Origin: a virus
Direction: 5' to 3' (one strand)
IMG/VR virus record: IMGVR_UViG_3300047444_000469
Span: 1 to 42,888 of that record
DNA: 42,888 nucleotides
Below, one piece after another: positions 4,771-42,358 of this stretch (position 1 is the first letter of the stretch; each line of letters starts with the position of its first letter). Both the position numbers and the translations under genes were made by a program. Under the pieces are notes generated by a model. That model was not told the DNA's origin. It made no database searches and worked only from the letters and a program-made list of their open reading frames with translations.

Positions 4771-5049
4771 ATGAGCGAGACATTCTCCTATGAGAACGAT
4801 GGAACCTACGTCCGTACGGGCGAGTGCTGTCGCTGCGGAGAGTGTTGCTGGGGCGATCCCTTTCAGGGCGAGATGGGAGAGGCTCCGATCCCCGGAGCTT
4901 GTCCCCTCTTGGCTCTCGCGGGCGGGCGCTACGTCTGCACCGATCGTTTGAACTCGTATTACCTGAATGGATGCAACGTCTGGCCATCGCATCCCCTGCA
5001 GATCGCGGATAAGCCGAGCTGTACCTACAAGTTTGAGAAGATCGCCTAA
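4771..5049 (+). CDS. cysteine-rich YkgJ-like putative metal-binding protein
   Basis: 92 residues from ATG 4771. The N-terminus carries ECCRCGECCWGDPF (Cys19, 20, 22, 25, 26), followed by ACPLLALAGGRYVCT, GCNVWPSHP and a final Cys near residue 83. The CxxCxxCC cluster followed by CPxL and spaced cysteines is the signature of the YkgJ / zinc- or iron-chelating CxxCxxCC family, which is rarely seen among structural genes. No good ribosome site precedes it; the gene follows a strong hairpin at 4726-4759 and its stop overlaps the start of the giant fibre gene. It looks like a moron: a cargo gene set between head genes. The metal and role are unknown. Confidence 0.7.
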   Translation: MSETFSYENDGTYVRTGECCRCGECCWGDPFQGEMGEAPIPGACPLLALAGGRYVCTDRLNSYYLNGCNVWPSHPLQIADKPSCTYKFEKIA

Positions 5050-16017: not shown

Positions 16018-16646
16018 CCCCGCCGAACAAATACTTCTACACCTTCAAGTCGAGCGACGGAGCGCAGGTCAAGGTTCTACGTGGAGATGGTCCGCCGAAG
16101 ATCGTTGGCGGCCTCGGCGGCTGGAGCATGGTAGCCCGTCCGCGCCGGACTTCGATCACGCAATGGGCCGGACGCGAGCCGTATCAGATGGATGTACCGG
16201 TTCTCTTCGACGGATGGCACGACGGCAACAGCGTCGAGACCGACATTCGAACGCTCAACAAGATGGCAATAGGAATGGACTACGATCCGCCTCCCACGGT
16301 CACGATCAGTGGCGCGCTTCCGGTCGGGGGAGCGACCTGGGTGATCAACGCGATTGACTGGGGCGATGACGTTTATTGGCAGCAGACCGACCGTGGTCAG
16401 TTCTACCGTCTGCGTCAGGACGCTTTAGTTCACCTCATTCAATATCAGGCGGTCGAGCGGCTCCAGATTACCGTCACCAAGTCGTTGCCCAACTCGTATA
16501 CCGTCTTCCGCAAGGGTGAGACTCTTCGCAGCATCGCCAAGTCGATGTACGGGGACGGTAGTCGCTGGAAGGATATCCAAAAGGCCAATCCGAGCGTCCG
16601 CGATCCGAACAAGCTTCCGCTCAAGAAGAGTCTGAGGATCCCCTAG
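16014..16646 (+). CDS. LysM-containing baseplate protein
   Basis: 210 residues, ATG 16014 overlapping the tape measure stop. Residues 1-150 form a beta-rich domain like small baseplate proteins between tape measure and hub. Residues 160-210 contain a LysM-like module: NSYTVFRKGETLRSIAKSM, then WKDIQKANP and a terminal LPLKKSLRIP. LysM modules bind peptidoglycan and are common in hub-adjacent tail proteins (XkdP, T4 gp53 type). It would anchor the hub and may aid positioning on the wall. The stop overlaps the hub gene's GTG. Confidence 0.8.
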   Translation: MTPPNKYFYTFKSSDGAQVKVLRGDGPPKIVGGLGGWSMVARPRRTSITQWAGREPYQMDVPVLFDGWHDGNSVETDIRTLNKMAIGMDYDPPPTVTISGALPVGGATWVINAIDWGDDVYWQQTDRGQFYRLRQDALVHLIQYQAVERLQITVTKSLPNSYTVFRKGETLRSIAKSMYGDGSRWKDIQKANPSVRDPNKLPLKKSLRIP

Positions 16647-26152: not shown

Positions 26153-27109
26153 TTACTTGGCACGTTCGATCCTGTGATGCTCGCTCCGGAAGCTCCGGTT
26201 GCTCTCCCGCGCCCAGGGGAACGGGCATTGGCCTTCGACGCTCTCCCAGCCCTGGAAGGTACAGGTATGAGCGAACGCTTCCGGTTCATCCTTGTACAAT
26301 GGGGCGTTTGTGTCGCTGTGAGCGTCGAGAGCGCCCTTCGTCTTCTCGCAGCTGATCTTGATGTAGGGATCGAGCCATGGGTAGAGGCGGACGAGGATCT
26401 CGCGGGCCATCCTCATGACCGTGACTATTTCCCACTGAAACATGGAGCAGCCCCGGTAGGCGTAGACGTTGATGAACTCGCGGAGCGGGTACTCCATCAT
26501 GATGTAGTTCGTCGTGCCCTCCGGGAGAATGTAGCGGGCGTCCTGGTAGGAGATGTTCGCTTCGCAGGCCGTGACGTAAGCCTCCCGGCAGGCCTCGATT
26601 GCAGCAGCCCATACCAGCCGAACCTCGTCCGGCGCTCGCCAGATCGACTCGGGCACCCGCTGCTCTGGACCGGATCCGTAGTAGCTCGCGCGCATCGACT
26701 GCTGATGGAACGCAGCCTTGCGGGTACGGACGATCTGGTGAGTACAGGCGCGCGATACTCCACTCACTTCGAAGACGAGAACCTGGGACTCCAGGGCGGT
26801 CTGGAGACCGCCCCGGAGCATTTCCTCCCAGTCTCGCGTATCTTCATCCGGACTGTACAGGTCGATCCCGATGGTAGCCCGGGTCGCTTTCGACAAGACC
26901 TTTTCGAACTCAGGGTTCAGACCTTGGACGAGGTTGACATGAATGCCGTCGTCGCCCACTTGTAGGAGGTCGTTGTCGTACGGCGATACGTGGTGGCCGT
27001 CGTTGATCGAGTGACGGTTGAACGCGACATCTCTGAGAAGCTCAGTCTCGCTGCGATCTTCCCACTCGCGAGATGCGCGGTACGGTGAAGGTTTGCGAGG
27101 GTCGTACAT
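26153..27109 (-). CDS. thyX: flavin-dependent thymidylate synthase ThyX
   Basis: 318 residues, ATG 27109 two bases from the HU-like gene stop. Makes dTMP from dUMP using methylene-THF, FAD and NADPH. The ThyX motif RHRx7S appears as R128-T129-R130 with S138 (RTRKAAFHQQS), a His-to-Thr change in the second position. Downstream the protein shows ARYILPEGTTNYIMMEYPLR and QWEI, as in the family. The length is longer than many bacterial ThyX proteins. With dnaE and the HAD nucleotidase, it suggests phage control of the thymidine pool. Confidence in the family is high. Confidence 0.88.
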   Translation of the reverse strand: MYDPRKPSPYRASREWEDRSETELLRDVAFNRHSINDGHHVSPYDNDLLQVGDDGIHVNLVQGLNPEFEKVLSKATRATIGIDLYSPDEDTRDWEEMLRGGLQTALESQVLVFEVSGVSRACTHQIVRTRKAAFHQQSMRASYYGSGPEQRVPESIWRAPDEVRLVWAAAIEACREAYVTACEANISYQDARYILPEGTTNYIMMEYPLREFINVYAYRGCSMFQWEIVTVMRMAREILVRLYPWLDPYIKISCEKTKGALDAHSDTNAPLYKDEPEAFAHTCTFQGWESVEGQCPFPWARESNRSFRSEHHRIERAK

Positions 27110-28207: not shown

Positions 28208-31200
28208 TCACGGCTGGATTCCCCACATCTCGCTCACGTAGATCTCGCGAGCTGCTCGCCAGCCTGGCTTGACACCACGCACCAGGACGATATCCTCGTC
28301 CAGCGCGATCTTCCAAAGGGTCTTCTTGAACCTCTCGTACTTCCAGCGGGTGACTCGCAGACTGACGAGATCGCTCCCGTCGTAGCCCGCGAGTAGCATC
28401 CATTCGTTCTTCTCTGGATGCTTCACCAGCGCCGGGTCTAGCTCCTCACCGGTACGAGCGCGGTTCACTTCAAAGATGTCGCGAAGGTTGCGATGGACTA
28501 TGACGCCGAGCCAGACTATCTCTTGGTCTTCGCCGCGCTCGTATGGGACCTCGACCGCCGTATGCGTAGGCATAGGAAGCTGCTGGCCCGAACTGTCCTT
28601 CATTCCCGGGAGATCCTTCTTGACGGACGCGATCATATTGTCGAGCCTCTCGATGCCGAAAGGGTCTTCGGCTGTTGCAAAGTCTACGAGCTTCTCGATT
28701 GTCTTCTGTCCGATTCCCTTCACTTCGATCAGGGACGACCAGCCGATTCCCTTCCAACCGAGCGGACTCTTGAGGACCTCTTCACGCCACTCGACGATCT
28801 TCGCGGCCATTGCCGGTCCTACGCCGTCGATCTGATCGAAGCCAGGACGTAGCCCGCGTCCGCCGTCACGCCTCCAGGTGGTCTCGGAACGACGGAGATC
28901 GTAGGGGAGGATTCGATAGCCATGATGAATGGCGTCGCGTAGCATGATAACCTGGCCGTCGATCTTAGCCTTTGTAGTGACGGTCGCTTTGACGTTGTTC
29001 GCACGTCCGCTCTGCCCCTTCCTGTCGGCACGACGAAGCATCGCCGCGTAGAAGATTCCCGGGTAGTGTTGCTTGAACCACATAGTCCACCATGCAATGT
29101 AACCGTAGCTTACGGAATGAGCCGCGTTGAAGGCGTAGGAGCCGCTGGTCGTGAGACCTCCCCAGATCGAGCGGGCCAACTCTTCATCGATGGGCGGGTA
29201 GCTCGACCGCTCATGAAGCGTTCGCGCCCCCTCGTAGAACCGTTCCCATTGCCGGTTGAACTCCTGGTCTCCGAGCTTCCGTGAGATGATCTTGCGGATG
29301 TAGGCGGCGTGCGTCCAGTCGAAGTTGCCGATCTCTCGGACGATTTGAAGGATCTGCTCCTGGTAGACGATCTGGAACTGGGTGAACCCCGTAATGTGCT
29401 CTAGGGCTGGATGTTGCAGGTGCGGTTGCTTCTCCCCTCTTTTAATGTCAACATAATCCGCCACAGCTCCGTTATGGAGCGGCCCGGGACGAGCGAGAGC
29501 TGTAACGTGACATACCTCGTTGAAGTCGTCGGGTTTGACGGATCCGTTGACCATTCGCATGGCTCGCCCTTCGAACTGAAAGACTCCGACGACATCATTC
29601 TCCTTGAATCCCTGGATGGTCTTCTCGTCCTCAATCGGGATCTCGTAGAGGAACGAGGCCGGTTTGCCGAGCATACGGCACATGGCTACGAGCGCGTCGA
29701 GCGCGGAGAGGCCGAGCAGGTCGATCTTGAGGACGCCGAGGTACTCTGCGTCGTACTTGTCAATAGCGATCACTTGGATCAGCTTCTTGTTAACCTCGCG
29801 CTCTAGGATCGCCGTGATCTCGACAATCGGCTCGTTCGATATGGCGACCCCGGCCGCGTGGACTCCGAACGACTTGACGTTGCCCTCTAGCTCGGTCGCG
29901 TCCATTAGATCGGGATGGCGCTCGATTACCGCCGCGGCCTGTTCGAACTGCTCGATGGTATCTACGATGGTCGCACTGGCGCGCAGGTCGCCGGACGACC
30001 GCTCCAGGAGGACATCCTTGATCTGGTCCACTTCGAACCGCGGGATCCGGTGAACGCGAGCGGCGTCATCGAGAGCTAGACGTGACTTGAAGGTCTGAAA
30101 GGTACCGATCTGATTGACGCATTCTCGCCCATACTTCGAAACCAGATAGTCAACAATCTCCCCGCGTCGCGCCGATTCGAAGTCAAGGTCAATGTCCGGA
30201 AGATCAAGTCGAGTGATATCAATGAAACGTTCGAATACGAGATGCGGGAATTGCATGGGGTTAACCTCGGTGATACGGAGCAACCAACAGACCAGGCTCG
30301 CCGCAGCGGACCCGCGCGCAGGACCAACTCCAATGTCGGTGTCTTTCGCGAACCGGACAGCGTCACTAACAATGAGGAAGTAATCATAGAAATCCTTCTC
30401 CTCGATGATCGACATCTCATACTTGAGCTGTTTCCCGTAGCGGCGCTGCTCAGCCTTGGTCATACGGTCGCAGCCTCGATACTCCCAGCCTCTCTTCAGC
30501 CAGGCCCGGAAGGTCTCTATGCCCGTATCTCCGTTCCGGGTTGGGTACCGGACCATGGGCAAGCGCGGTAGCTCGACCGTACAATCGGTCGCCAGTTCCT
30601 CGGAGAGAAGGATGGCGTTGATCGCCTCCTGGCGCGTTAGGCCGGTCTCGATCAGTCGGCGCATTATGCTACGGTCGGAAGCAGGCGGACAGAGAGCCGC
30701 AGAGTACCCCCAGCTTTTGGCGAGATCCTCCGGGGTGGACTTGCCCCCGCTGCGGAGCGAATGGAGTACCTTCTGCAGCTCTTTCTCCGTCGGCAAAGTG
30801 TAGTGGCAATCGAGCGTCGCTACCATCGGGATCCCTAGCTCGCGAGAGATCCGCGCGATCATAGGGTTGGCCTGGCGCGTCTTCTCTAGCTCGGGGAACG
30901 CCTGCACCTCAAGCACATAGGACGAGCCCAGAGTACGTTTAAAGCGAGCTGCGACAGAACGACCTCGCCGGTAGCTGGCGTTCTCCTCAGCAATGTGTTT
31001 TCCGCCAACAAGCGAAGTGAAGAGCAGACCGCTCTGGCATCCGCTGAGCACAATAAGGCCACGTCTGTGTTCGCCCAGCATTGATCCAGAGACAGTTGCC
31101 TCATAGTAGAAGCCCTCCTTGTAGGATCGAGAGACGAGTTGTAGGATGTTCCGGTACCCCTCCTGGTCACGAGCGAGGATCGTCAGGTGGTTCTTGAGCT

Positions 31201-31618
31201 GCCCTCTCCGCTCCTGGTCGATCTCGCCGGTGTACAGCTCGATGCCGAAGATCGGCTTGATGCTCTCCCGCTTCGCAGCCTGTTCGAACTTCACATGGGA
31301 CATTACGTTCCCATGCTCGGTCATCGCGAGGGCGGATCCCTGAAGTTCAGCGATTCGGCGAGCATGAGCATCGGGCAGCTGAAAACCGTCAAGGAAGCTG
31401 TATGTGGAGTGGTGGTGTAGAGATACAAAACGCATAGGTCGCGTTGGTGGTCTCTCTCGATGGCGAAGATCTCGTACTGCGGTTGGCTGCTCGTGTCCGC
31501 ACTCCTTCTTTCCAAACGCGCCGAGCTTCGCCTTGTCCGGAGACTCACCACGCTGGATACCAAACGCCGAAAGCTTGGCATGATCGGGACTCTCCCCTCT
31601 CTGGATTTCGTCGCTCAT
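28208..31618 (-). CDS. dnaE: DNA polymerase III alpha subunit (DnaE-type)
   Basis: 1136 residues from ATG 31618 (ATGA overlap). The PHP domain begins at about residue 62 (RFVSLHHHSTYSFLDG) with a MTEHGNVM segment. The polymerase core has GPARGSAAASLV near 435 and catalytic Asp residues in PDIDLDFE near 476, plus an HhH pair near the C-terminus (IDGVGPAMAAKIVEW, and GIGQKTIEKLV). Length is near bacterial DnaE. An extra N-terminal part carries two 16-residue repeats (IQRGESPD-H/K-AKL, each ending AFG). It would replicate the phage genome. No clamp gene is visible nearby. Confidence 0.9.
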   Translation of the reverse strand: MSDEIQRGESPDHAKLSAFGIQRGESPDKAKLGAFGKKECGHEQPTAVRDLRHRERPPTRPMRFVSLHHHSTYSFLDGFQLPDAHARRIAELQGSALAMTEHGNVMSHVKFEQAAKRESIKPIFGIELYTGEIDQERRGQLKNHLTILARDQEGYRNILQLVSRSYKEGFYYEATVSGSMLGEHRRGLIVLSGCQSGLLFTSLVGGKHIAEENASYRRGRSVAARFKRTLGSSYVLEVQAFPELEKTRQANPMIARISRELGIPMVATLDCHYTLPTEKELQKVLHSLRSGGKSTPEDLAKSWGYSAALCPPASDRSIMRRLIETGLTRQEAINAILLSEELATDCTVELPRLPMVRYPTRNGDTGIETFRAWLKRGWEYRGCDRMTKAEQRRYGKQLKYEMSIIEEKDFYDYFLIVSDAVRFAKDTDIGVGPARGSAAASLVCWLLRITEVNPMQFPHLVFERFIDITRLDLPDIDLDFESARRGEIVDYLVSKYGRECVNQIGTFQTFKSRLALDDAARVHRIPRFEVDQIKDVLLERSSGDLRASATIVDTIEQFEQAAAVIERHPDLMDATELEGNVKSFGVHAAGVAISNEPIVEITAILEREVNKKLIQVIAIDKYDAEYLGVLKIDLLGLSALDALVAMCRMLGKPASFLYEIPIEDEKTIQGFKENDVVGVFQFEGRAMRMVNGSVKPDDFNEVCHVTALARPGPLHNGAVADYVDIKRGEKQPHLQHPALEHITGFTQFQIVYQEQILQIVREIGNFDWTHAAYIRKIISRKLGDQEFNRQWERFYEGARTLHERSSYPPIDEELARSIWGGLTTSGSYAFNAAHSVSYGYIAWWTMWFKQHYPGIFYAAMLRRADRKGQSGRANNVKATVTTKAKIDGQVIMLRDAIHHGYRILPYDLRRSETTWRRDGGRGLRPGFDQIDGVGPAMAAKIVEWREEVLKSPLGWKGIGWSSLIEVKGIGQKTIEKLVDFATAEDPFGIERLDNMIASVKKDLPGMKDSSGQQLPMPTHTAVEVPYERGEDQEIVWLGVIVHRNLRDIFEVNRARTGEELDPALVKHPEKNEWMLLAGYDGSDLVSLRVTRWKYERFKKTLWKIALDEDIVLVRGVKPGWRAAREIYVSEMWGIQP

Positions 31619-31929
31619 CCGTACATCTCTCTTCTGATCTGCTTGACGAGGAAGTTCGCATAGTTGATGATATCGATGGCATCCTCGACCAGCGCGTCAT
31701 CTAGGTTACTGTGATCGACTTCAGGCTGCGTCGTCCGGAGACGCTCGCGAGCGACATACGCCTGCTCGATCCGCATGATGCGCTCACGTAGCTCGCGGAT
31801 CTTATCGGACGGCGGCCACTCTAGCCACATCTGTCCTCGGACCATGCTCCGATCTTTGAAGAGCTTCATGGCCTCGTAGAAGACGAGCGAGTGCTCGGCT
31901 TCGAAGTCAAAGATCTGATCAGGCTGCAT
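31615..31929 (-). CDS. putative Nmad1/DUF1599-like or MazG-type small protein
   Basis: 104 residues from ATG 31929 with GGAGGGAGA upstream; a longer reading from 31965 overlaps the HAD gene more deeply. The C-terminal helix (DDALVEDAIDIINYANFLVK) resembles the E/D...D..NYA helix in nucleotide-modification-associated domain 1 (DUF1599) and MazG-like families, which act on nucleotides. It lies between a HAD nucleotidase and dnaE. The family assignment is tentative; a MazG-like nucleotide pyrophosphohydrolase or an uncharacterised protein are alternatives. Confidence 0.5.
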   Translation of the reverse strand: MQPDQIFDFEAEHSLVFYEAMKLFKDRSMVRGQMWLEWPPSDKIRELRERIMRIEQAYVARERLRTTQPEVDHSNLDDALVEDAIDIINYANFLVKQIRREMYG

Positions 31930-32575
31930 AACTCTCCCTCCACCAGTTGATTCGTTCCACAGCAAGCTCGGGCGCGGTCTCTAGCGTGCACATGTTCATC
32001 CAGGAGAGGTCCTGGTTGTAGTTGTTCAAGACGAGCACCGTCGTGTCGATCCCGAAGTGTAGAGTCTTTGCCGCCGCATCGCACATCTCTACCAGGTCGT
32101 CGAAGATCGCGACGACCCGCCGACTGTCGATCCGATGAGCCAGCTGCTCGTACTTGTCCTCATCGAACAGCATGCCGTCGTACCTGATCCCATGACGTCG
32201 GCACCACTCGACCGTATCAGGGACGATGTTGTCGAGCGAGAGGTAGGGACGGGTAGTGGTGATCCACAATTCCGCCCCGGCGCTTCGGATCATCTGGCAC
32301 AGATCCGCCGCTCCTTCGTAGATCGGCATCGTCCGCTTCATCCCGCCCTGCCGGTAGGCGAGCTTGACGTCGTGCCAGTCTTTCTCGCTCATCTGGTACA
32401 CGTCCATCCACCAGTCCTTGAACTTGATCCCACCGCTGTAGGTGTAGTCGTCGTCCGGCAGGTTGAAGTATTCGACGGCGAACCAGATGAAGTGACCGTG
32501 GTAGTCTCCGAGCGTGCCGTCGATATCGACCGCGACGACTGGCTTGATCTCCCTATAGCAGCTACTGCAACGCAT
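31919..32575 (-). CDS. HAD-family 5'-deoxyribonucleotidase-like phosphatase
   Basis: 218 residues from ATG 32575, chosen because GGGAGG lies six bases upstream; the ORF extends to 32629. Motif I AVDIDGT (Asp17, Asp19), motif II near ELWITTTRP, and motif IV VAIFDDLVEMC match HAD phosphatases of the 5'(3')-deoxyribonucleotidase group. CSSC at residues 3-6 may bind metal. The substrate is likely a deoxynucleoside monophosphate, which would link it to ThyX and the flavoprotein. The gene overlaps the flavoprotein gene by 14 bases. Confidence 0.75.
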   Translation of the reverse strand: MRCSSCYREIKPVVAVDIDGTLGDYHGHFIWFAVEYFNLPDDDYTYSGGIKFKDWWMDVYQMSEKDWHDVKLAYRQGGMKRTMPIYEGAADLCQMIRSAGAELWITTTRPYLSLDNIVPDTVEWCRRHGIRYDGMLFDEDKYEQLAHRIDSRRVVAIFDDLVEMCDAAAKTLHFGIDTTVLVLNNYNQDLSWMNMCTLETAPELAVERINWWRESYAA

Positions 32576-33338
32576 CCGTAACCTCCCGATAGGCGTGGTG
32601 GGTGAAGACGTTCTTGTTCCACTTACCAAAACGGCCGAGACGGACGATCTCAGGATGACAATCGCAGTCTGTGTATAGCGGTTTGAACCCCTCGCTGACT
32701 TGAAGCCCTTCCGCGACTCTCTGAGCCTCTAGGTAATTGGACGGGTGACGACTGGAAAACTCCCATGACTGGTAGTCTCGGATCAGCGAGTAGCGATACC
32801 AGCTAGGCACGCCGGTCGGCGGCAGGCCGTTATAGACCATCATGTTCTTCCCCTTCACCGGTCCATGTATGACCCAGATCTTCGCCGAGGGGAAGGAGTG
32901 TTGCCAGTTGTCGCAGATGTTCTGAATGGGAACCGTCGAGAACGTTATGTCGTACTCCTTCGCGATCCCGCGTATGCTGGAAGACGTCAACGAGACATCG
33001 TAGATCCGGCTCTCGTATTCCTTCCAGAGGGAGTCGTACACGTTGGCGAGATCCCAGCCGGGGGTCGGACCTTCCGCGAACTTGTCCCAGCTGACCGGAG
33101 CTGCCGCGTCTCCGTAGACGTTGAGAGCGTAGCCTTCGCGCGTCCCTAGTTTGGACACTTGAATCTCTAGCTCCGGCATCTCCGAGCTAATCCCTGGAAT
33201 TGGAGCATGTAGGTACATAGCCCCGAATATCTGGCTGGGACTCCTACGCGAAAAGATGCTCACGTTATGGCCAAGCTGCTCGGCCGCGTACGCCGAGAGA
33301 AGGCCGGCAGGACCACAACCAAGGATCGCTACCCTCAC
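32562..33338 (-). CDS. FAD-dependent oxidoreductase-like protein
   Basis: 258 residues from GTG 33338 (GTGA overlap with the previous stop). The N-terminus holds the dinucleotide-binding GxGxxG: VAILGCGPAGLLSAYAAEQL then HNVSIFSRR. The C-terminus RLGRFGKWNKNVFTHHAY resembles the FAD-binding tail of the UDP-galactopyranose mutase/protoporphyrinogen oxidase-type superfamily. It is shorter than full-length flavoproteins of that group, so substrate and fold are uncertain. Placement beside a nucleotidase and ThyX suggests nucleotide or DNA modification, which is inference. Confidence 0.7.
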   Translation of the reverse strand: MRVAILGCGPAGLLSAYAAEQLGHNVSIFSRRSPSQIFGAMYLHAPIPGISSEMPELEIQVSKLGTREGYALNVYGDAAAPVSWDKFAEGPTPGWDLANVYDSLWKEYESRIYDVSLTSSSIRGIAKEYDITFSTVPIQNICDNWQHSFPSAKIWVIHGPVKGKNMMVYNGLPPTGVPSWYRYSLIRDYQSWEFSSRHPSNYLEAQRVAEGLQVSEGFKPLYTDCDCHPEIVRLGRFGKWNKNVFTHHAYREVTDALQ

Positions 33339-33940: not shown

Positions 33941-36700
33941 CTACCATCGAACTTCTCTGAGTAAATCATGAAGCGTAGGCTCCACGATGTTGTCCTGTCC
34001 GCTCTTGTGGATCATGCGTGAATCGTAGAGCTTGTTGATCACGGCATTCGCGTTCTCTCGATCCATATTCATCACCTCCTCTATGTCCTGTCTCCGGAAG
34101 CGGCCTGTCTGGCGCAGTAGCTTGGCGAGGTTGCGACGCTCCAAGAGGTAGCGGCGGATCTCGTCCTTGTTCTCTTCGGCCTCTTGTACGTCCAGGATCC
34201 GCTCGCGAGAGCGGTCGCCGTAGCCGAGTGTTGGCATATCGTAGAGGACATCCATGAACTTCACCGCGTCTTGAACGTGTTCCTTCGTCACGACGATCTT
34301 CTCGCAACTATCGTCCGTGCTGAACGTCCGTGCCGCGATAGCGATGGCTACGCGAGCTATCTTGATACGAGCGTTCGCTGCTTGGACCAGCGGCGGGTCT
34401 TCGATGTACCTCTGGCCCATCTCGTTCGCGAGCTTGTAGACCTGATCCTCCGCTCCTCGCATCCAGACGATCTGGTCTAGCCGCCGCGTCCATACCCACA
34501 TGAGGAGCGTATGGCAAGCTTCGCTCGTGTACTTTAGCTCGCCCGCCTCGCGCGGCTTGTTAATCTCTTCCGAGGCTACGTCATGCTTCGACACGGCCAT
34601 CGCGAGGTCGAAGCGGGCGATGTCCTCGGGATTCCCGATCAGTGGGCGTAGCGCGTCGATCCCGTACGTGAACTGCTCCATCCCTCCGGAGCGCGGGTTG
34701 CCGAGCCAGAGCAGCCGAGTCCTTGCGTAGGTAACCTCCGACTGGATCTTGGTCAGTCGAGCTATCCCGGACGCTCGCACGTCGGACATCTTCGCGATCT
34801 CTTCGGGATGTAGCCCGGATAGCTCATCGATCACGACGAGCCGCCGGTCGTTGAGCGGGATCACGCCCCAGGTAACGGCCCAGTCTTTCCCGGAGATTTG
34901 CTGGACCCCGCCTACCAGACCGGCGATGGTAGCTCCCTCACCGCCGACGATCTCCCCGGCTCCGAAGTGGCGCACGTATTGCTCGGCTGCCTCTGACTTC
35001 CCCGTCCGGGTATCTCCAACGATCAGGGACTCGATCCAGCCTCGGTGGACGATCTGCCCGCCGAACTTGAAGGCGAGCGGCGAGTGGAACGTCAGGTCGA
35101 TCACGGCGTGCATCTCCGGGCGACCGATGATCTTCGTGACATGGTTCGCTAACTCGCGCTCGATCTCTCCAAGCTTGCGAAGGGGCCGCTGCCTACCGCG
35201 TACTCGGAATCGCTTCATGAGCTTCTTCGCTTCTGGCGTGATCTCGAAATGGTCTACACTCGTCTCTTGCTGGCGGATCTCCCAAGCGAGAAACTCGTTG
35301 TGTTGTCCTCGTGGTGAGGGGTAGAGCGCGCCGGTCGCGATGATCGTAGTGTTGGCCATCGTATCGTGCCGACCGACCGACGTGATCTTTATGTTTTTAT
35401 AATCCCGAGCCTGGGTTCCGTCAGCATGGTCGATGGAAGGGCGGGCGAAGAGATGCTCGACCGCTTGATGCTCCTCGATCTCGATATCCAGCTTCCCGCA
35501 CTTCTGCGCTCCGTACTCAAGGCGGATCATCTCAAGTACCTGGGCCGTTGAGCTATCTATCATCCCGAGCGTGAGCGGGCTAGTCGCCGGGATCTCCAGG
35601 GTAGCCTCGCCGTTGGCTGCGTTCATCGGGCAGATCTTACACTTCGGCCCCGCGTCCTGCGTACAGTGGAGCTTCGTCTTCCAGGGGATCGTGTAGCCCG
35701 GTTCCTTCTTCCCCTTGATGGTAACCTGGAGGTTGACCGGCTCTCCGACCCGCTGCGCGTCGAAGGAGTCGAGAACTGTGATGACCGCTGGCGTCGAATC
35801 CTTCCGCTTCTTCAGAGGCTGCGCCTCGGCAAGCAGGCTTTCGAAATCGTTGTTGTCGTGCTCCATCCAGAAGTCGGTAAGGTCCTTGCCGTGCTTCTCT
35901 TCGGCCTCGTATGGCAGCTCGACTATCCGGACATCAGCCGTCTTGGCGAGCTGGCGAGCGATCCGTTGAGCGCCGCGTATCCCGTCACGGTCGCGATCTT
36001 GCGCGACGAAGACGAGCTTGTCCTTAAAGTGAACGTTCCAGCGCGGGTACCAGGTCATCGCTCCCGCCGTCCGGGTGATCGCGGCATATCCGTGCTGGAT
36101 GGTGAGGAGCGTATCCCATTCACCTTCGCAGATGATGATTCGATCAGAGTCGAGAACGCTCATCGGGTATAGCTCGGTTGTTCGCATTCCCGTGACATTC
36201 CAGATCTTCGTATGCGCTCCCTCGCGACGAGTGTACCGGCGGACGTTCCAGATCTCCCTCTTGGGCCCACGTATCGGAATCGTGTAGGCATGCTTGACTC
36301 GATCCCAGCCTAGCTCGTAATCGACCATCGTCTTGGTGTGGATCCCGCGCTCGATCAGGTAATCGCAGACCGTCTCGTCATCGAGCAACGCGGCATGCCA
36401 ACCTTTGATGTTTCCCTCTGTGACGATCTCTGCTCCTCCGCTGCGCCGGGGAGAGCTTCTTCCATTCAGTGCTGCTCTCCCCGGGTCAATCCAGCTGCTC
36501 TTCTGCGCTACTAGGTCGGTGATCCTCCCGCCGCCACAACCAGCGAAGCAAAACCAGTCACCCGTCAAGGTGTTGAGAGATGCTGACCGATTCACGTCTT
36601 CGTGCAACGGACAGAACATGTCCCATTCCCCATTGGCTTTCGCGTTGCCAATTAGGTATGGCTTGAGTAGCCGGTAGTGACGAGCTGAGATCTTCGACAC
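33941..36700 (-). CDS. primase-MCM helicase fusion
   Basis: 919 residues, GTG 36700. In order: a CHC2-type zinc finger (C30, H33, C51, C55, with x3 rather than the usual x2 between the last pair); a TOPRIM primase core with E192 in IICEGEWDT and D235/D237 in VAQDRDRDG; a zinc/OB region with KLHCTQDAGPKCKICP; then an MCM-like AAA+ domain. The MCM part has Walker A GDTRTGKSEAA near 556-566, Walker B LVVIDELSGL near 620, sensor LLWLGNPRSG near 667 and arginine-finger ARFDLAM near 697. A winged-helix-like end lies at about 860-919. One chain would prime and unwind. No separate DnaB or DnaG is seen. Confidence 0.8.
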   Translation of the reverse strand: MSKISARHYRLLKPYLIGNAKANGEWDMFCPLHEDVNRSASLNTLTGDWFCFAGCGGGRITDLVAQKSSWIDPGRAALNGRSSPRRSGGAEIVTEGNIKGWHAALLDDETVCDYLIERGIHTKTMVDYELGWDRVKHAYTIPIRGPKREIWNVRRYTRREGAHTKIWNVTGMRTTELYPMSVLDSDRIIICEGEWDTLLTIQHGYAAITRTAGAMTWYPRWNVHFKDKLVFVAQDRDRDGIRGAQRIARQLAKTADVRIVELPYEAEEKHGKDLTDFWMEHDNNDFESLLAEAQPLKKRKDSTPAVITVLDSFDAQRVGEPVNLQVTIKGKKEPGYTIPWKTKLHCTQDAGPKCKICPMNAANGEATLEIPATSPLTLGMIDSSTAQVLEMIRLEYGAQKCGKLDIEIEEHQAVEHLFARPSIDHADGTQARDYKNIKITSVGRHDTMANTTIIATGALYPSPRGQHNEFLAWEIRQQETSVDHFEITPEAKKLMKRFRVRGRQRPLRKLGEIERELANHVTKIIGRPEMHAVIDLTFHSPLAFKFGGQIVHRGWIESLIVGDTRTGKSEAAEQYVRHFGAGEIVGGEGATIAGLVGGVQQISGKDWAVTWGVIPLNDRRLVVIDELSGLHPEEIAKMSDVRASGIARLTKIQSEVTYARTRLLWLGNPRSGGMEQFTYGIDALRPLIGNPEDIARFDLAMAVSKHDVASEEINKPREAGELKYTSEACHTLLMWVWTRRLDQIVWMRGAEDQVYKLANEMGQRYIEDPPLVQAANARIKIARVAIAIAARTFSTDDSCEKIVVTKEHVQDAVKFMDVLYDMPTLGYGDRSRERILDVQEAEENKDEIRRYLLERRNLAKLLRQTGRFRRQDIEEVMNMDRENANAVINKLYDSRMIHKSGQDNIVEPTLHDLLREVRW

Positions 36701-36709
36701 TAGTGGCGC

Positions 36710-37717
36710 CTAGAACGGCTGCGCGTCTTTGTCGTCCGCCCGCAGGGCCTCGATGAGTCTCTCTTTCGTTTTGCGTCCCTTGATCTTGATGTCCGCCTCC
36801 TGCTCGTTGCGGGTGGCGACCTCTTCATTCAACTCTTCGAGCGTCCAGTCTTCGTACTCGTCGCCCTCTTCCTCACCTGACTCTTCGCCCGCTCCGTTCA
36901 GATGGATCTGTGCGGCCTCCGCGAGAGCGACGATGGCCTCGATGTACTTCTTCTTGTCCTTGCGACCGGTGACGTTCCCGGCGATGCCGAGGTCTTCGGC
37001 GTACGACTTGATATCGTCCGCGTTCCAGTCGTCGTAGAACGAGGCGTCAGTGCGGAGATCTTCCAGCAACTCCGCATCGAGACCGGCGACGGAGCCGTTG
37101 CTGTCGCCCGCCTCTTCCTCATCTTCCTCTGGTTCTTCCCCGCCCTGATCCGCTAGGATCGCGTCGATGGCCTTCTGGGTTCCGAAGCGCCCGGACAACG
37201 TGATCCCGCGCGCCTCCAGCTCCTCCTTGAGGTCGTCGCTCGACCACTCGCCCAACTCCTCGGCCGTCAGAGGCTCCTCGCCGCTGCCGCCTTCGGGCAG
37301 GTCCTCGCCATCTTCCTCGATCTTGCCGGGGGCGAAGAGGCTGCGGACGCGGCCACGATACTCGCCCTCCTGGTTCGTGTCAGCGACGACCTTGACGTTG
37401 ACCTTCTTGCCGAGCTGCTTCGCCGTTTCGAACTGGCCCTTGGCCGGCAACTTGAGTGCGTCGGTCAGCTCGCGGAACTTCCAGCCGTGTGCGGCCTCGT
37501 TGTAGTTTGGATCGCCCGGGGTCTTGACGTAGGTCCAGAGATTGGTGTACTCCGGGCCGACGCTGACGACGACTTCCAGATCGTTGACAGCGCTGCCGTC
37601 CGCCTTCTTGTCGCGGTTCGTCATCGCGACAATGCTGCCCTGGTACAGTCCTGGCTGCGGAGCTTCTCCACCGCCGCCTGACTCGACGTTCGATACGTCA
37701 TACTTTACTACGGCCAT
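36710..37717 (-). CDS. SSB-like protein with SAP-like repeats
   Basis: 335 residues, ATG 37717 with AGGAGGGAG upstream. The N-terminal ~120 residues look like an OB-type single-strand DNA-binding domain of DUF669/gp2.5 style. Then come three ~40-residue SAP/HeH-like helical repeats: around 149-190 (LTAEELGEWSSDDLKEELEA), 228-270 (DDWNADDIKSYAEDLGI) and 288-330 (YEDWTLEELNEEVATRN), set in acidic linkers. The C-terminus ends DDKDAQPF, like the acidic aromatic tip by which SSBs recruit partners. The protein probably protects ssDNA and recruits the primase-helicase, encoded next door. SAP-like repeats on an SSB are unusual. Confidence 0.65.
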   Translation of the reverse strand: MAVVKYDVSNVESGGGGEAPQPGLYQGSIVAMTNRDKKADGSAVNDLEVVVSVGPEYTNLWTYVKTPGDPNYNEAAHGWKFRELTDALKLPAKGQFETAKQLGKKVNVKVVADTNQEGEYRGRVRSLFAPGKIEEDGEDLPEGGSGEEPLTAEELGEWSSDDLKEELEARGITLSGRFGTQKAIDAILADQGGEEPEEDEEEAGDSNGSVAGLDAELLEDLRTDASFYDDWNADDIKSYAEDLGIAGNVTGRKDKKKYIEAIVALAEAAQIHLNGAGEESGEEEGDEYEDWTLEELNEEVATRNEQEADIKIKGRKTKERLIEALRADDKDAQPF

Positions 37718-37719
37718 TC

Positions 37720-38544
37720 TTATGTCTCCCTCCTGGTGCGTCTGCGCCGTCCCGCTCCATTCGCGGACGGCCTACATTTGTTGATCTCTTCCATCATACC
37801 CGGAAGAGTGGGGCTGACGATCTCGCCGGACGAGCCGAATGGAGAGGTCCCGTCCGGGAGCTTGAATTGGCATTTGGCGTACCAGTTCTCGGTCGCGTTC
37901 GTATGAAGGACACGCACCGTTCTCTTGCGTCCGCCGCGACCCTCGCGGGTCTCGATGGATCCGTAGGCGACGATGTTCATCATGCCGCAGATCTTCTGGG
38001 GCATCATCTTCCCTTGGATCCAGGGCCAGATACAGGACGGCGTAACTCCGTTGTCGTTCGGATCCCACCAGAACGAGTGGGCCGTGATTCCGAGGTTGAC
38101 GGTACCCGCGCCTACCATGTGGCGTACCCATTGTCCGAGTCGCCACATGTTGACGCGGTACTCACCTCGATCCGGGCCGTACTGCTCGCGATCCTTGCGA
38201 GCAAGCGAGCCGACCGGCCCCTTGCGATCCAAGACGTTCTCGTACAGGTCATCTAGTCCGACGTCTTGGAGGAGCGAGATCGAGTCGAGCCAGATCCAGT
38301 CCCACTTCGGCCCTTCGTGTTGAGCGTACTCAAGGGCTTCGAAGGTTTCCTCCCAGTTACGCACGACCATCTCGTGCACACCTGACCCAACGATGGGGTC
38401 AACGTGGTCTGTAGGAGGTCGCACAATGAGGATCTTTGCATCCTTTCCTCCCGTCCCGATGAAGGATGTTTTACCCCAACCGATGTCAGCATGGATGAGC
38501 ACACTGATCTTGGTCGAGGCTCCTGCCGGTTCGATCTTCGGCAT
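37720..38544 (-). CDS. Sak4-like RecA-type recombinase ATPase
   Basis: 274 residues from ATG 38544; GAGG lies six bases upstream, and the preceding GTG is less likely. Walker A is at A19-D-I-G22-W-G24-K25-T26 (ADIGWGKTSFIG), with Walker B-like DWIWLDSISLL near 92-102. The size and single RecA-like core match Sak4 / AAA_24 phage single-strand annealing proteins. It probably pairs DNA strands together with the SSB and the RecB-like nuclease beside it. The basic C-terminal tail (RRRRTRRET) may bind DNA. The SSB-like gene starts three bases after its stop. Confidence 0.75.
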   Translation of the reverse strand: MPKIEPAGASTKISVLIHADIGWGKTSFIGTGGKDAKILIVRPPTDHVDPIVGSGVHEMVVRNWEETFEALEYAQHEGPKWDWIWLDSISLLQDVGLDDLYENVLDRKGPVGSLARKDREQYGPDRGEYRVNMWRLGQWVRHMVGAGTVNLGITAHSFWWDPNDNGVTPSCIWPWIQGKMMPQKICGMMNIVAYGSIETREGRGGRKRTVRVLHTNATENWYAKCQFKLPDGTSPFGSSGEIVSPTLPGMMEEINKCRPSANGAGRRRRTRRET

Positions 38545-38547
38545 CAC

Positions 38548-39651
38548 CTACCTCGTTTCGTCTTGGTAGATTGTGTGGGCATCGTAAGGCTTCCAGCCGG
38601 TCGTCGCGTAGTCGCGCATCTGCTTCCAGTCCGCTCCGATCTCGTGAAGCTCGCAGAAGTCGAAGCACCAGCAACCGGGGCAAGTAAACTGTCCTTGGTT
38701 TTTATAGGCTCGGGGTGGCGGCGCGTCGGTGCGAGGACTACCGCGAAGGGCTTGCATGTCCCGGAACTCTTCAATGACCTGTTCTCTCGCTCGCTCGCGC
38801 TCGTTGAAGTCTCGCCAGATCGGTGTGCGGGTGAGGTAGGGTGCCGGCTGCTTCTTGCTTACAGTGCCATCTTTATTCAACGAGAAGCCGTCCCCATCCC
38901 TCGGCCGTTCATCGCGGAATGCCTTGCGGAGATGGTTGTAGATCATTCCGGCCGGACGCTCGCGAGGGGAGAGCAGCCCCTTCGCATAGATCCAGTCGAG
39001 GCCAAATGTCCAATAGCCGGTCGCCTGGAGGTCGAGCGAGAGGTACATCACGTTGATCGACTTCGCAGTCTTGTGGTCCCAGATGTGCAACTTCTTCGTG
39101 AGGCGGTTCCTCATGATGAGGTCGATGGTCCCGACGTACCAGAACCAAGGCAACCCAGTGACCGGATTAGGGACTAGTTGCTGGAACGCTTGCTCGGTAA
39201 CGACGACCTCCCACTCATCGTCCTTCCCGTAGTGCTCGACGTAACCGTTGAGCATGTCTACGCCTAGCTCTCGTGCCTCGGCCCAAACCTCGTCCGCCTC
39301 CAAGTCGTCTACCCGGAAGCCGAACTCACCTTGAGCCTTGGCCTCCAGATCGTAATACTTGAGGAAGCTCTTGGCCGGATGAGGGCCGCGGCGGACCCCT
39401 TTCTTGTAGTAGTCCGCGAGGGCGAGATGGATCAGGCTGCCGAACCGTAGGGGCGGAACGGGAGTCTTGGGCTTGAGGACATCTTCGAACTCTTGCCACC
39501 ACTTCCAGCGGCAGCGCTTGAACGTCGAGCGTTCTGAAGTCCGGAGCATAGGGAGACCGTCAAGCTGCGAGCTAGGACGGGTCGCTAACTTGACGATCTC
39601 CCCATGCTTCGGATCCGAACGACGTTTGCGGCGTACCACGTGCGTGGCCAA
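38548..39651 (-). CDS. PD-(D/E)XK nuclease with Fe-S cluster signature (RecB/Cas4-like)
   Basis: 367 residues from TTG 39651, chosen because AAAGGGAGGG precedes it; upstream sequence to 39741 lies in the non-coding region. Motifs: H75 in RFGSLIHLALADYY; D177 in VGTIDLIM; D192-x-K194 in IWDHKT; and Q209-x3-Y213. Cys47 (FKRCRWKWW) plus a C-terminal TCPGCWCFDFCE near 324-333 could bind a 4Fe-4S cluster, as in AddB and Cas4. This is a 5'-3' exonuclease candidate supplying ssDNA to the Sak4-like ATPase. Translated in one operon with Sak4 and SSB. Confidence 0.8.
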   Translation of the reverse strand: MATHVVRRKRRSDPKHGEIVKLATRPSSQLDGLPMLRTSERSTFKRCRWKWWQEFEDVLKPKTPVPPLRFGSLIHLALADYYKKGVRRGPHPAKSFLKYYDLEAKAQGEFGFRVDDLEADEVWAEARELGVDMLNGYVEHYGKDDEWEVVVTEQAFQQLVPNPVTGLPWFWYVGTIDLIMRNRLTKKLHIWDHKTAKSINVMYLSLDLQATGYWTFGLDWIYAKGLLSPRERPAGMIYNHLRKAFRDERPRDGDGFSLNKDGTVSKKQPAPYLTRTPIWRDFNERERAREQVIEEFRDMQALRGSPRTDAPPPRAYKNQGQFTCPGCWCFDFCELHEIGADWKQMRDYATTGWKPYDAHTIYQDETR

Positions 39652-39754
39652 TGTTCCCTCCCTTTCATTTGAGTTGCCGGATCGTAAGCCCGTCTGCTCT
39701 CCGGCCCCAGAGGGTGCGCGCCCCCGTCTCAACAACGGCAACCCCAGATGACAT

Positions 39755-40107: not shown

Positions 40108-40305
40108 TTAACCGCCTGAGAACCACTTTCCCATCGCCTTGAGTTCAGCCGGGGACATCGGTTCTACCTCGTCCAGCTCCTCATCGACCGCCCGAATCCG
40201 GGTGTTCAGAGGCTTGGTAGGACCCTCTCGGATCTTGGCTACGCCTGAAAGCAGACCGAAGAATCCCCCGGCTATGATCGAAATCGTTATGATCACGCCG
40301 ATCAT
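40108..40305 (-). CDS. small membrane protein
   Basis: 65 residues from ATG 40305 (ATGA overlap with the helicase stop). Residues 1-22 are hydrophobic (MIGVIITISIIAGGFFGLLS), one membrane span, then a charged cytoplasmic-type tail with EELDEVEPMSPAELKAMG. No family is recognised. It could be a host-directed membrane effector. It ends the helicase block before the non-coding region. Confidence 0.6.
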   Translation of the reverse strand: MIGVIITISIIAGGFFGLLSGVAKIREGPTKPLNTRIRAVDEELDEVEPMSPAELKAMGKWFSGG

Positions 40306-42086
40306 TTCGATCCTACGGTCTGCTTGAGCATCTGCCGGCGCAGATCGAGGACGTTCTTGTTCACTTCGAACTTCTCGTCATTCACCTTTTTGATGTACTC
40401 CTCGACCGTTCCGCGGCTGCGATACACGAGGGCCGTCACTTGGTGTATTCTCGTTGTATCCACCGCTCGGTCTGTTACCTGCGTTTGATCGTCCGGGTTC
40501 CAGGTCTCATCGAGTACGTGTACGTCAGACGCCCGGTTCAGAGTGATCCCGACGCCTGCCGCAGCCGTGACGAGCACCGCGACCCGAACCTGACCGGACT
40601 GGAACTCTTCCATGATCCGGTTTCGTTCCTTCATTTCGACCGCTCCCGAGATGATCTCACAAGGGATCCCGTTGTTATTCAGGTACTTGTAGATCATCTC
40701 AGCGGTCTCGCGGAACTGAGACGCGATCAGAGCTTGGTCTTCACCTTCCGGGTCGTCCGGGTCGATGCCACGTTCTGCGAGGTTCTGTAGCAGATAGGGG
40801 ATCTTGCCGCACTCTTCGGTAGCCTTGACCTTCATCTCGACGCGACCAGTCTCCTCGTCTACGCTGAGGATCTGGACGGCACACTTGTGGTTAGCGAACT
40901 GTTTCAACCGCGTGTACTCGGCCAGGATTGAGGTGGCAGAGAGGTGGTACTCGTCGATGCGAACCTCGGCCGCTGCTGCGAACTCCTTGTACTGCGCAGC
41001 TTGCGGCGTCGTCATATCGCACCAAACGTCGATCCACTGAGTCTCCGGCAGCTGAGGCAGGACCTCAGAGCGGAGACGGCGGATCGCATGAGGCGCGAGT
41101 GCCTTGTAGAAGGCATCCTCGCGTCCCTTGATGATACCGCCAATCGTCCTGTAGTTGCCCCAACCGCTAACTATCACCAGCCACTGCTCAGCCCAACGCC
41201 ACTTCGACGTATACTGCTGAGGTTCTAGCCAGTGCAGAGCGCCCCAGAGCTTGATTGGCTTACCACCCATCGGGGTACCGCTGAGTGCGTACTTCCTCAG
41301 AGCCTTGACCTTCTTCGCCTCCTTGGAGAAGACGTTGGCAGAGACTGGCAGACCGGTCTTATGGAACTCATCGATCGTGAACGAGTTCCATTGCTTCAAC
41401 TGCGGATAGTTCCCACGATAGACCATGGACGCAGTTGTCACGAACCAGAAGGGCTTCTTGGCCTTCAGGCACCGTTCTACCGTATCCTCGGCTTTTGCTT
41501 TCTCCTGTGTAGTCAGGTCGCCCGAGAACGTCACTACCTCATGATCCGTCCATCGCTCGATCTCCATCCGCCAGATACTGTCGAGCGTAGACTTCGGCGC
41601 AACGACGAGGTGAGGACCGTTCTCCAAGTCAGCCTCGAAGATCGCTCCAATCACTTCGGTCGTCTTGCCTAGCCTCGGCTCCAACAGGTTCAGGCAGCTA
41701 GTCGTCGCCATGAACTTCACATCGGCCCGCTGGTACGGACGGTACCACTTGGCGAGCTTCGGGAGCTTCTTCAGCAGCTTCAACTCCTTGAGCGGGACAT
41801 CGTCCAGCACAGAGAGAGACTGCAACGTCAGCTCCTTCTTCACCGCCTTGCGACCCCAGGCCGAGACCGCAGCTCCGAGTTGAAGCCCGTCTCCGAACTC
41901 CTTGCGGAGCTGCCTCATGGTTTCGAGGTCGAGTGGTACCGTCCAAAGCGGTCCACCCTTGTCATACGGGGTGAACCTAGCTCCGAGGGGCTTGAGTCGA
42001 TTCATCGCCGCGACGTGTTCGTCACTGAACTGGAAATGAATCGCACAACGATCACCCTTCTCCGTCAACTCGGCGAAGACCTTCAT
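40302..42086 (-). CDS. SNF2-type DNA helicase/translocase
   Basis: 594 residues from ATG 42086 (ATGA overlap; GAGGGAAG upstream). The longer reading to 42140 overlaps the preceding gene and is rejected. Residues 1-70 resemble a HARP-like N-terminal domain. Walker A is EPRLGKTTEV (K141, T142); Walker B is IDEFH (239-242); SGTPM lies at 269-273. A helicase C-terminal domain follows, with VLVTAAAGVGITLNRASDVHV and QVTDRAVDTTRIHQ (motif VI). SMARCAL1-like proteins anneal or remodel DNA forks. It probably acts in replication restart and recombination with the genes that follow. Confidence 0.82.
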   Translation of the reverse strand: MKVFAELTEKGDRCAIHFQFSDEHVAAMNRLKPLGARFTPYDKGGPLWTVPLDLETMRQLRKEFGDGLQLGAAVSAWGRKAVKKELTLQSLSVLDDVPLKELKLLKKLPKLAKWYRPYQRADVKFMATTSCLNLLEPRLGKTTEVIGAIFEADLENGPHLVVAPKSTLDSIWRMEIERWTDHEVVTFSGDLTTQEKAKAEDTVERCLKAKKPFWFVTTASMVYRGNYPQLKQWNSFTIDEFHKTGLPVSANVFSKEAKKVKALRKYALSGTPMGGKPIKLWGALHWLEPQQYTSKWRWAEQWLVIVSGWGNYRTIGGIIKGREDAFYKALAPHAIRRLRSEVLPQLPETQWIDVWCDMTTPQAAQYKEFAAAAEVRIDEYHLSATSILAEYTRLKQFANHKCAVQILSVDEETGRVEMKVKATEECGKIPYLLQNLAERGIDPDDPEGEDQALIASQFRETAEMIYKYLNNNGIPCEIISGAVEMKERNRIMEEFQSGQVRVAVLVTAAAGVGITLNRASDVHVLDETWNPDDQTQVTDRAVDTTRIHQVTALVYRSRGTVEEYIKKVNDEKFEVNKNVLDLRRQMLKQTVGSK

Positions 42087-42358
42087 CGCTTCCCTCTGTA
42101 GACAGCGTACACCTCGCACCAGCGAGCAGCGAACTCCCATGTGTGCTTCGGTTCCGGGATGATCACCGCTCGTGAGTGCAAGTTCGATTGTGCTCTGTTC
42201 GCTGCTTCCGGAGTCTCACAGACGTAGATGAGAGCCCATTTCCCCGGATGTTGCATCAGGGGCAGCAAACGATTTGCCCAGCTGTGAGGATCCCCTGAAC
42301 CGCGTCTTGGGGCATCCTTACCTATGAACACTGGGAAGTTATCTTGCATGTTCGACAT
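42083..42358 (-). CDS. hypothetical protein
   Basis: 91 residues, ATG 42358 with AAGGAGGG upstream. The protein holds WANRLLPLMQHPGKWALIYVC and a C-terminal WEFAARWCEVYAVYRG segment. It may be a small alpha/beta protein, but no motif is recognised. It is coupled by a four-base overlap to the SNF2-type helicase, suggesting a partner role. Confidence 0.65.
   Translation of the reverse strand: MSNMQDNFPVFIGKDAPRRGSGDPHSWANRLLPLMQHPGKWALIYVCETPEAANRAQSNLHSRAVIIPEPKHTWEFAARWCEVYAVYRGKR

Follow-up and report, generated by a model that had tools for sequence, protein, structure and literature searches.

A predicted phage primase-helicase that combines a DnaG-type primase with an MCM-like motor

DNA primases and replicative helicases usually fall on two sides of a divide, DnaG with DnaB in bacteria and an archaeo-eukaryotic primase (AEP) with MCM in archaea and eukaryotes, and the enzymes of the two sides are unrelated. 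Does a single gene of the virus record IMGVR_UViG_3300047444_000469 (IMG/VR; positions 1 to 42,888) cross that divide? This whole 42,888-base stretch, with a G+C content of 59 percent, is referred to below as the window. Its plus strand carries matches to a tail sheath, a major head protein, a head maturation protease and a baseplate wedge, and because of the tail sheath, head and baseplate wedge matches we assign it to a contractile-tailed phage. The open reading frame (ORF) at 33941-36700 is present on the minus strand, as the initial annotation had described, with a GTG start and 919 residues; the protein recurs with 99.9 percent identity on a 57,311-base contig. Sequence comparison and structure prediction support the view that this protein joins a DnaG-type primase to an MCM-like helicase in one chain.

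Domain architecture of the fusion protein

The gene and the parts of its product are as follows, with residue numbers referring to the protein.

33941..36700, minus strand: whole gene, CHC2-TOPRIM-MCM primase-helicase, 919 residues, GTG start
36491..36700, minus strand: CHC2-type zinc-binding domain, residues 1-70 (C30, H33, C51, C55), indicated by conservation, a sub-threshold Pfam match and a profile match to PDB 1d0q
35801..36430, minus strand: predicted DnaG-type RNA polymerase (TOPRIM) domain, residues 91-300 (E192/E194, D235, D237, D273)
35261..35794, minus strand: MCM-like N-terminal domain of OB-like type, spanning about residues 303-480 and bearing a further set of conserved cysteines (C346, C354, C357, C401)
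34196..35188, minus strand: MCM-like AAA+ motor and lid, about residues 505-835; motor elements Walker A 562-569, helix-2 insert about 592-611, Walker B 622-626, presensor-1 hairpin 646-658 (K651), sensor 1 N668 and arginine finger R696
33944..34168, minus strand: probable C-terminal winged helix, about residues 845-919, indicated by predicted secondary structure and an alignment to 8x7u_C up to residue 901

All motifs named for this protein in the initial annotation were found in its translation: CPLH with C30 and H33, followed by C51, C55, E192, D235 and D237, and in the motor TGKS (566-569), VIDEL (623-627), GNPRSG (667-672) and ARFDL (695-699). Conservation was counted across 58 aligned TOPRIM-MCM proteins, dereplicated beforehand. 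In this alignment C30, C51, D235, D237, K568, E626, N668 and R696 are invariant (58/58), and the two remaining zinc-finger residues are less strictly kept (H33 in 52/58, C55 in 44/58).

For the primase half, the Pfam Toprim_2 model matched the window protein at 22.7 bits against a cut-off of 22.1, and the NCBIfam model dnaG (TIGR01391) matched residues 184-296 with an E-value of 4e-8, below its cut-off. A profile of 57 N-terminal domains searched against PDB sequences recovered Aquifex DnaG (2.5e-19) as well as E. coli DnaG and T7 gp4; 12 of its 14 hits were primases, and the last two were weak matches to GFP-fusion binding proteins (E 0.09). Positions 22-65 of the family profile matched PDB 1d0q, a 103-residue piece of a DNA primase which we take to be its zinc domain. 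The AlphaFold2 model of residues 1-300 had a mean predicted local distance difference test score (pLDDT) of 93.6 and a predicted template modelling score (pTM) of 0.71, and its residues 91-300 aligned with B. subtilis and Aquifex DnaG over 201-202 residues (Z 21.8, root-mean-square deviation (rmsd) 2.4). Thus, the TOPRIM/RNA polymerase fold, the DxD and the glutamate that mark a DnaG-type enzyme are all found in the predicted domain. The TOPRIM triad proposed initially stood in its aspartates and only partly in its glutamate: E192 (36125-36127, minus strand), which corresponds in the alignment to the EGYMD glutamate of E. coli DnaG, is present in 52/58 proteins and is G or A in the other six. 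E194, two residues further on, is invariant (58/58), as is D273, and K165 is kept in 54/58. Judged from this alignment, the catalytic glutamate may have shifted from E192 to E194.

For the helicase half, the Pfam MCM model (PF00493) matched at 31.8 bits against a cut-off of 23.3. When the window protein was searched against PDB sequences with phmmer, 43 of 44 hits were MCMs, the other being an esterase with an E-value of 0.79; the profile of all 58 proteins gave 56 hits at E <=0.1, comprising 12 primases and 44 MCMs. The full-length AlphaFold2 model had a mean pLDDT of 86.9, and its residues 299-834 aligned with archaeal MCM (best Z 30.3, rmsd 5.7, 458 residues), with an identity of 13-18 percent in the MCM structure alignments listed. 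Because 6sko_6, a chain that comprises the motor only, aligned over 308 residues compared with these 458, about 150 residues of the MCM N-terminal domain appear to be matched too. In that domain C346, C354 and C357 are invariant (58/58) and C401 is kept in 54/58, and by analogy with the MCM N-terminal domain the four cysteines probably form a zinc site. The helix-2 insert (model strands 597-603/606-611) and the presensor-1 hairpin (646-650/654-658), whose K651 is kept in 56/58, align with those of archaeal MCMs. The structure-alignment lists (VIA-align) were second looks, and the absence of a family from them excludes nothing. A Foldseek search against viral models returned mostly TOPRIM primases, its best match being one 560-residue model.

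The winged-helix-like end proposed initially found agreement in predicted secondary structure (helices at 845-893 and a hairpin at 897-906), a sub-threshold MarR match and one structural alignment, 8x7u_C, and nothing further; on the model, a winged helix is probable there.

Pfam, phmmer, profile and structure comparison, the last being a check that the initial annotation had called for, agree that the AAA+ part is of MCM type rather than DnaB or SF3 type. The Walker A and B motifs, sensor-1 asparagine and arginine finger are present, together with an N-terminal OB-type domain recognised by structure from residue 299. The window protein is called MCM-like and not cellular MCM, because its score against the NCBIfam MCM domain model NF040949 lies below cut-off and because its group forms a separate clade in the motor tree described below. 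Archaeal and eukaryotic MCMs share with the window protein the N-terminal domain, helix-2 insert, presensor-1 hairpin, sensor and arginine finger, and we know of no cellular MCM with a fused primase. T7 gp4 and Twinkle likewise carry an N-terminal DnaG-type primase on a hexameric helicase (the ring being a prediction for the window protein), and the window N-terminal fold aligned with T7 (5ikn_J, Z 19.5) and with Twinkle (7t8c_A, Z 18.0). Their motor, however, is RecA-type and moves 5' to 3', whereas the window motor is AAA+ and MCM-type, with 3' to 5' movement expected. Neither the DnaB/RecA-type motor of the TOPRIM-DnaB class nor the N-terminal AEP domain of the AEP-MCM class was found in the window protein. 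These comparisons support its placement as a DnaG-type primase with an MCM-like helicase, belonging neither to the T7 gp4 type nor to the AEP-MCM fusions.

AEP-bearing sister proteins

Eight relatives, labelled here by locus number, were scanned with Pfam. The MCM model matched in all eight at E <=0.5 (over cut-off in five), a TOPRIM model in six (over cut-off in four) and an AEP model in the other two; CHC2 was over cut-off in four of the eight (L013, L017, L018 and L019). The two AEP-type proteins (1027-1030 residues) come from Bacillus phage vB_BboS-125 and B. velezensis plasmid p3 and match DNA_primase_S and MCM over cut-off; in both a PriL-like match is seen as well, and it exceeds the cut-off in L016 alone. 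On two genome contigs from Bacillota (L099 and L100), DNA_primase_S likewise occurs together with MCM and a PriL-like match.

The helicase halves of the two kinds of protein are homologous. The TOPRIM-MCM profile matched three AEP forms from profile positions 297-308 to 923-927 (4e-129, 1e-127 and 9e-127), whereas it matched L103, a protein of TOPRIM type, from profile position 88 on. Consistent with this, phrog_18685 matched vB_BboS-125 and L099 over their full length, and its match to the window protein covers phrog_18685 only from position 380 of the phrog. With L099 as tblastn query, its C-terminal region (residue 350 or so onwards) matched TOPRIM-MCM phages, with E-values from 9e-61 (Bacillus BSP7) to 1e-37 (Wollypog) among the matches listed; Paenibacillus phages matched more weakly (1e-14), from residue 519. 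Residues 50-372 of L099, in turn, matched Thermus phage primases annotated as eukaryotic-type small subunit. Thus, as judged from these alignments, one MCM module, beginning at about residue 300, is fused in sister proteins to unrelated primases, DnaG-TOPRIM or AEP. This swap of primases on a shared MCM module goes past the initial annotation.

In a tree of the motors, the 28 rows of the phage and plasmid group were separate from seven archaeal, halovirus and metagenome-assembled genome (MAG) MCMs (100/100). The four AEP rows formed one clade (100/99) and 21 of the 22 TOPRIM-labelled rows another (98/98), while L103 joined two deltaproteobacterial rows (96/91), one of which, L102, is likewise TOPRIM-type. 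The branch that joins the AEP clade and the main TOPRIM clade had a support of 92/74, and L018, L106 and L109 sat on long branches for which the program gave a warning, so that a direction of the swap can be read only tentatively. The simplest reading of the tree is that AEP replaced the TOPRIM primase once. Separately, L106 5051-7516, on a Clostridia MAG contig, encodes an 822-residue protein with MCM_OB, MCM and MCM_lid over cut-off and about 250 residues in front of them; this protein of a bacterial bin is closer in type to cellular MCMs.

AEP-MCM fusions described so far resemble the window protein in being single-chain proteins of primase and MCM-like helicase from Gram-positive phages and plasmids (BcMCM, and phrog_18685/vB_BboS-125). 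Their primase is archaeo-eukaryotic (DNA_primase_S with a PriL-like match), unlike the CHC2-TOPRIM primase of the window protein; for phrog_18685/vB_BboS-125 the homology of the helicase half begins at about residue 300, and BcMCM is likened by description, not by sequence. According to the available part of a review (PMC4538821), BcMCM is an AEP-MCM fusion of a B. cereus prophage for which 3'-5' helicase activity was reported, at first with no primase activity, and for which a later study found primase and polymerase activity with a preference for deoxynucleoside triphosphates. The accessible sections of a 2018 paper (PMC5862659) state that MCM helicases of the bacterial realm had previously been described only in bacteriophages, and place MCM-family helicases also in AEP proteins of the PrimQH family and in bacterial plasmids. 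SCCmec Cch, compared by description only, is likewise an MCM-like helicase on a bacterial mobile element; unlike the window protein, it has no fused DnaG-type primase in the portion available of its description (PMC7581432).

Distribution and gene neighbourhood

The initial annotation had expected an uncommon arrangement, and this did not hold: the fusion is common in this phage lineage, and close homologues are already in databases as 'DNA primase' or 'DNA primase/helicase', the names under which cultured Microbacterium, Arthrobacter and Bacillus phages carry it. In a phage collection, 52 of 50,697 records matched at 1e-5, and 47 of these covered at least 80 percent of the query. The 52 comprise 36 Microbacterium, seven Bacillus, two Arthrobacter, two Paenibacillus and five other records, with some phages counted twice and two vB_BboS-125 records that are AEP-type. 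An IMG/VR scan with the helicase alignment gave 337 relatives, and the details that follow rest on the best 80 of them, which lean towards window-like forms; the remaining 257 may hold AEP or other forms. A custom hidden Markov model of the TOPRIM half matched at E <1e-10 in 79 of these 80, which form 66 sets differing in the last 500 residues, and the single miss starts inside the gene, its 5' end being cut; a one-off fusion or an assembly artefact is thereby ruled out. Scanning of genome contigs found at least ten loci, two of them TOPRIM-MCM: one from Deltaproteobacteria (L102, 3' end cut; no match to the Pfam TOPRIM model) and one from Thermodesulfobacteriota (L103, 21.5 against the cut-off of 22.1). 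We found no description of a TOPRIM-MCM fusion in the literature searched and make no claim of absence; Kazlauskas and others (2016), outside that search, may list some. In the available part of a study of a Paenibacillus phage (PMC6937236), API480 gp47, a 'DNA primase' with a figure of 105.39 (probably kDa), was detected by mass spectrometry; API480 (record MK533143.1) was among the relatives found here, so that production of such a relative at roughly its full length seems likely. Among the IMG/VR loci, two different TOPRIM-MCM genes (L034 and L047) lie about 65 kb apart on the 129,757-base IMGVR_UViG_3300046533_000294, which suggests two joined phage genomes or a chimeric contig.

Neighbouring genes were counted in 80 IMG/VR loci, leaving aside that of the window's near-identical twin; these are loci some of which are near-identical and two of which share a contig; at least 5 kb of flank was available upstream in 47 loci and downstream in 58.

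28208..31618, minus strand: DnaE-type DNA polymerase III alpha subunit, downstream in 58/58 loci
31919..32629, minus strand: HAD/NT5C-like nucleotide phosphatase, just below Pfam cut-offs, downstream in 40/58
32562..33338, minus strand: protein with a Rossmann-type FAD/NAD-like N-terminus, below Pfam cut-offs, phrog_8720 (unknown function), downstream in 57/58
36710..37717, minus strand: DUF669 protein, upstream in 31/47
37720..38547, minus strand: Sak4-like annealing protein with an AAA_24 ATPase match, upstream in 45/47
38548..39741, minus strand: PD-(D/E)XK exonuclease, upstream in 47/47
40302..42140, minus strand: SNF2-type SF2 helicase/translocase, upstream in 29/47

A 116-residue ORF was also found downstream in 26/58 loci. 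The window DnaE keeps the PDIDLD motif. The DUF669 match scored 20.5 bits in one scan (cut-off 21) and 22.1 bits, over cut-off, in another; the protein has a long acidic C-terminal part and sub-threshold SAP-like matches, and is possibly the single-stranded DNA-binding protein of the module. Outside this kin the cluster fades. A tblastn search with the neighbouring proteins of the window gave no DnaE match in L013 or L015-L019; SNF2 and the exonuclease alone were recovered in L013 and L017, SNF2 alone in L018, and no neighbour at all in L019 and the AEP types. In the Bacillus, Weizmannia and Paenibacillus relatives the polymerase is annotated as DNA polymerase I or A, not DnaE. DnaE is a single ORF in the window, but two phages have it as two annotated ORFs, Microbacterium phage Sparcetus (genes 61 and 63; L012 27774-31271) and Arthrobacter phage Wollypog (genes 56 and 59; L014 25411-29287), with a small ORF between the halves in both and an HNH endonuclease in addition in Wollypog; this suggests a split or invaded polymerase gene.

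Elsewhere in the window, 26153-27109 (minus strand) encodes a thymidylate synthase family protein (phrog_35637, 1.2e-108). On the plus strand, a 1384-residue protein with a laminin-G/lectin-type domain (5049-9203) and a 709-residue tail protein with an NlpC/P60 domain (16646-18775) are perhaps receptor-binding and wall-cutting parts of the virion.

Candidate role at the replication fork

The initial annotation had seen no DnaB-like gene, and a wider search upholds this: DnaB_C (PF03796) was found neither in the window nor in another 43 records (with the window, 44 in all: 36 IMG/VR records picked mainly for length, one being the window's twin, and seven named phages), a negative limited by the possibility that the sequences of the window and of IMG/VR are incomplete. 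Six of the named phages are labelled complete genomes, one of these (vB_BboS-125) being AEP-type, and SV21 is a partial genome; as a control, the model matched in 14/14 known genomes, 10 of them over cut-off. DNA_primase_S was likewise absent from all 14 TOPRIM-type records, including the window's, and was found in the one AEP-type record given (vB_BboS-125); its control matched only the archaea, four of the 14 genomes. For the 14 TOPRIM-type records this rules out an AEP encoded at another locus.

Architecture, conservation and gene context make the window protein probably the phage's replicative primase-helicase; from them we infer its activity, polarity and ring formation, and a place as the main fork helicase. 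About six copies would form a ring, in which the AAA+ tier would hydrolyse ATP between subunits, with arginine finger R696 acting in trans. One strand would be pulled 3' to 5' by the presensor-1 hairpin (K651) and the helix-2 insert, as proposed by likeness to MCM and BcMCM. The primase domains would hang from the N-terminal tier and encounter the excluded lagging strand on its way out of the fork, so that primers could be made there and extended by the phage DnaE. The winged helix may aid loading or origin recognition. Since the primase would be a separate module on this chassis, an unrelated AEP could, and did, replace it in sister proteins.

Several observations weigh against this role. CHC2 scored 12.8 against a cut-off of 24.9 in the window protein, though the zinc-finger residues are present, and in the six proteins with G or A at E192 priming may be weak or differently built. 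PF00493 matched in 14/14 control genomes and so is not exclusive to MCM; Pfam MCM_OB and MCM_lid were unmatched in the window protein, and NF040949 gave 23.6 bits against a cut-off of 940. The full-length model had a pTM of 0.62, too low for a confident prediction of how primase and motor sit with respect to each other. The neighbourhood fades in distant relatives such as L018 and L019, and host DnaB could still drive the fork.

This last point underlies the best-surviving alternative, which we consider improbable, that the fusion serves recombination-dependent replication or fork restart as an auxiliary enzyme while host DnaB-DnaG drives the main fork. The exonuclease (47/47), Sak4 (45/47) and SNF2 (29/47) neighbours are of recombination type, and a restart role is suggested for BcMCM in the part of the review available (PMC4538821). 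However, the fusion is the sole replicative-type helicase noticed, with no DnaB_C in the 44 records, SF3 and other families not having been searched genome-wide; moreover, it travels with DnaE (58/58 loci) or, in the Bacillus, Weizmannia and Paenibacillus relatives, with DNA polymerase I/A.

Less likely still, the AAA+ part might be another helix-2-insert member, of chelatase, MoxR, McrB or BrxL type, acting as a loader or remodeller rather than as a processive helicase. The inserts of MCM are common to the helix-2-insert AAA+ group, and the control genomes that PF00493 matched include bacteria. Nonetheless, neither a chelatase nor an AAA_5 model matched the window protein at E <=1 (BrxL was not compared separately), its motor-side PDB hits were MCMs bar the one esterase, and the region aligned by structure includes the MCM N-terminal domain, which to our knowledge chelatase, MoxR and McrB lack. 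We give similarly little credence to a degenerate primase half that would leave a protein working as a helicase only: the sub-threshold CHC2 match and the replacement of C55 (14/58) and E192 (6/58) are set against D235, D237, E194 and D273 in every protein and K165 in 54/58, a DnaG polymerase fold predicted at high confidence, and no second, AEP-type primase in the 14 records. Lastly, a DnaB/RecA or SF3 motor is ruled out by Pfam, the phmmer and profile searches of PDB, the structure match and the lack of DnaB_C in the 44 records, and a chance AAA+ resemblance by conservation in 58 sequences.

A broader form of the preferred reading, on which we are evenly divided, is a mobile-element MCM chassis, whose N-terminal domain, motor and winged helix would have been retained while its primases were swapped between two unrelated superfamilies, and a chimeric replisome, in which a DnaG-type primase at the fork-facing tier, a helicase tracking the leading strand and DnaE act together. 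The N-terminal tier of CMG sits ahead of the motor, facing the fork, and Pol alpha-primase docks at this tier; if the chassis reading is true, the phage primase sits about where Pol alpha-primase docks on CMG, and lagging-strand priming from a 3'-5' helicase does not require an AEP primase. The DnaG and AEP forms on one motor make it testable whether priming needs matched helicase polarity or tethering only. Gene names of cultured phages omit MCM among the matches listed, an annotation that the finding would correct. A DnaG-type primase on an MCM-like motor, conserved in a widespread phage group, would thus cross the divide between the bacterial and the archaeal and eukaryotic replication systems.

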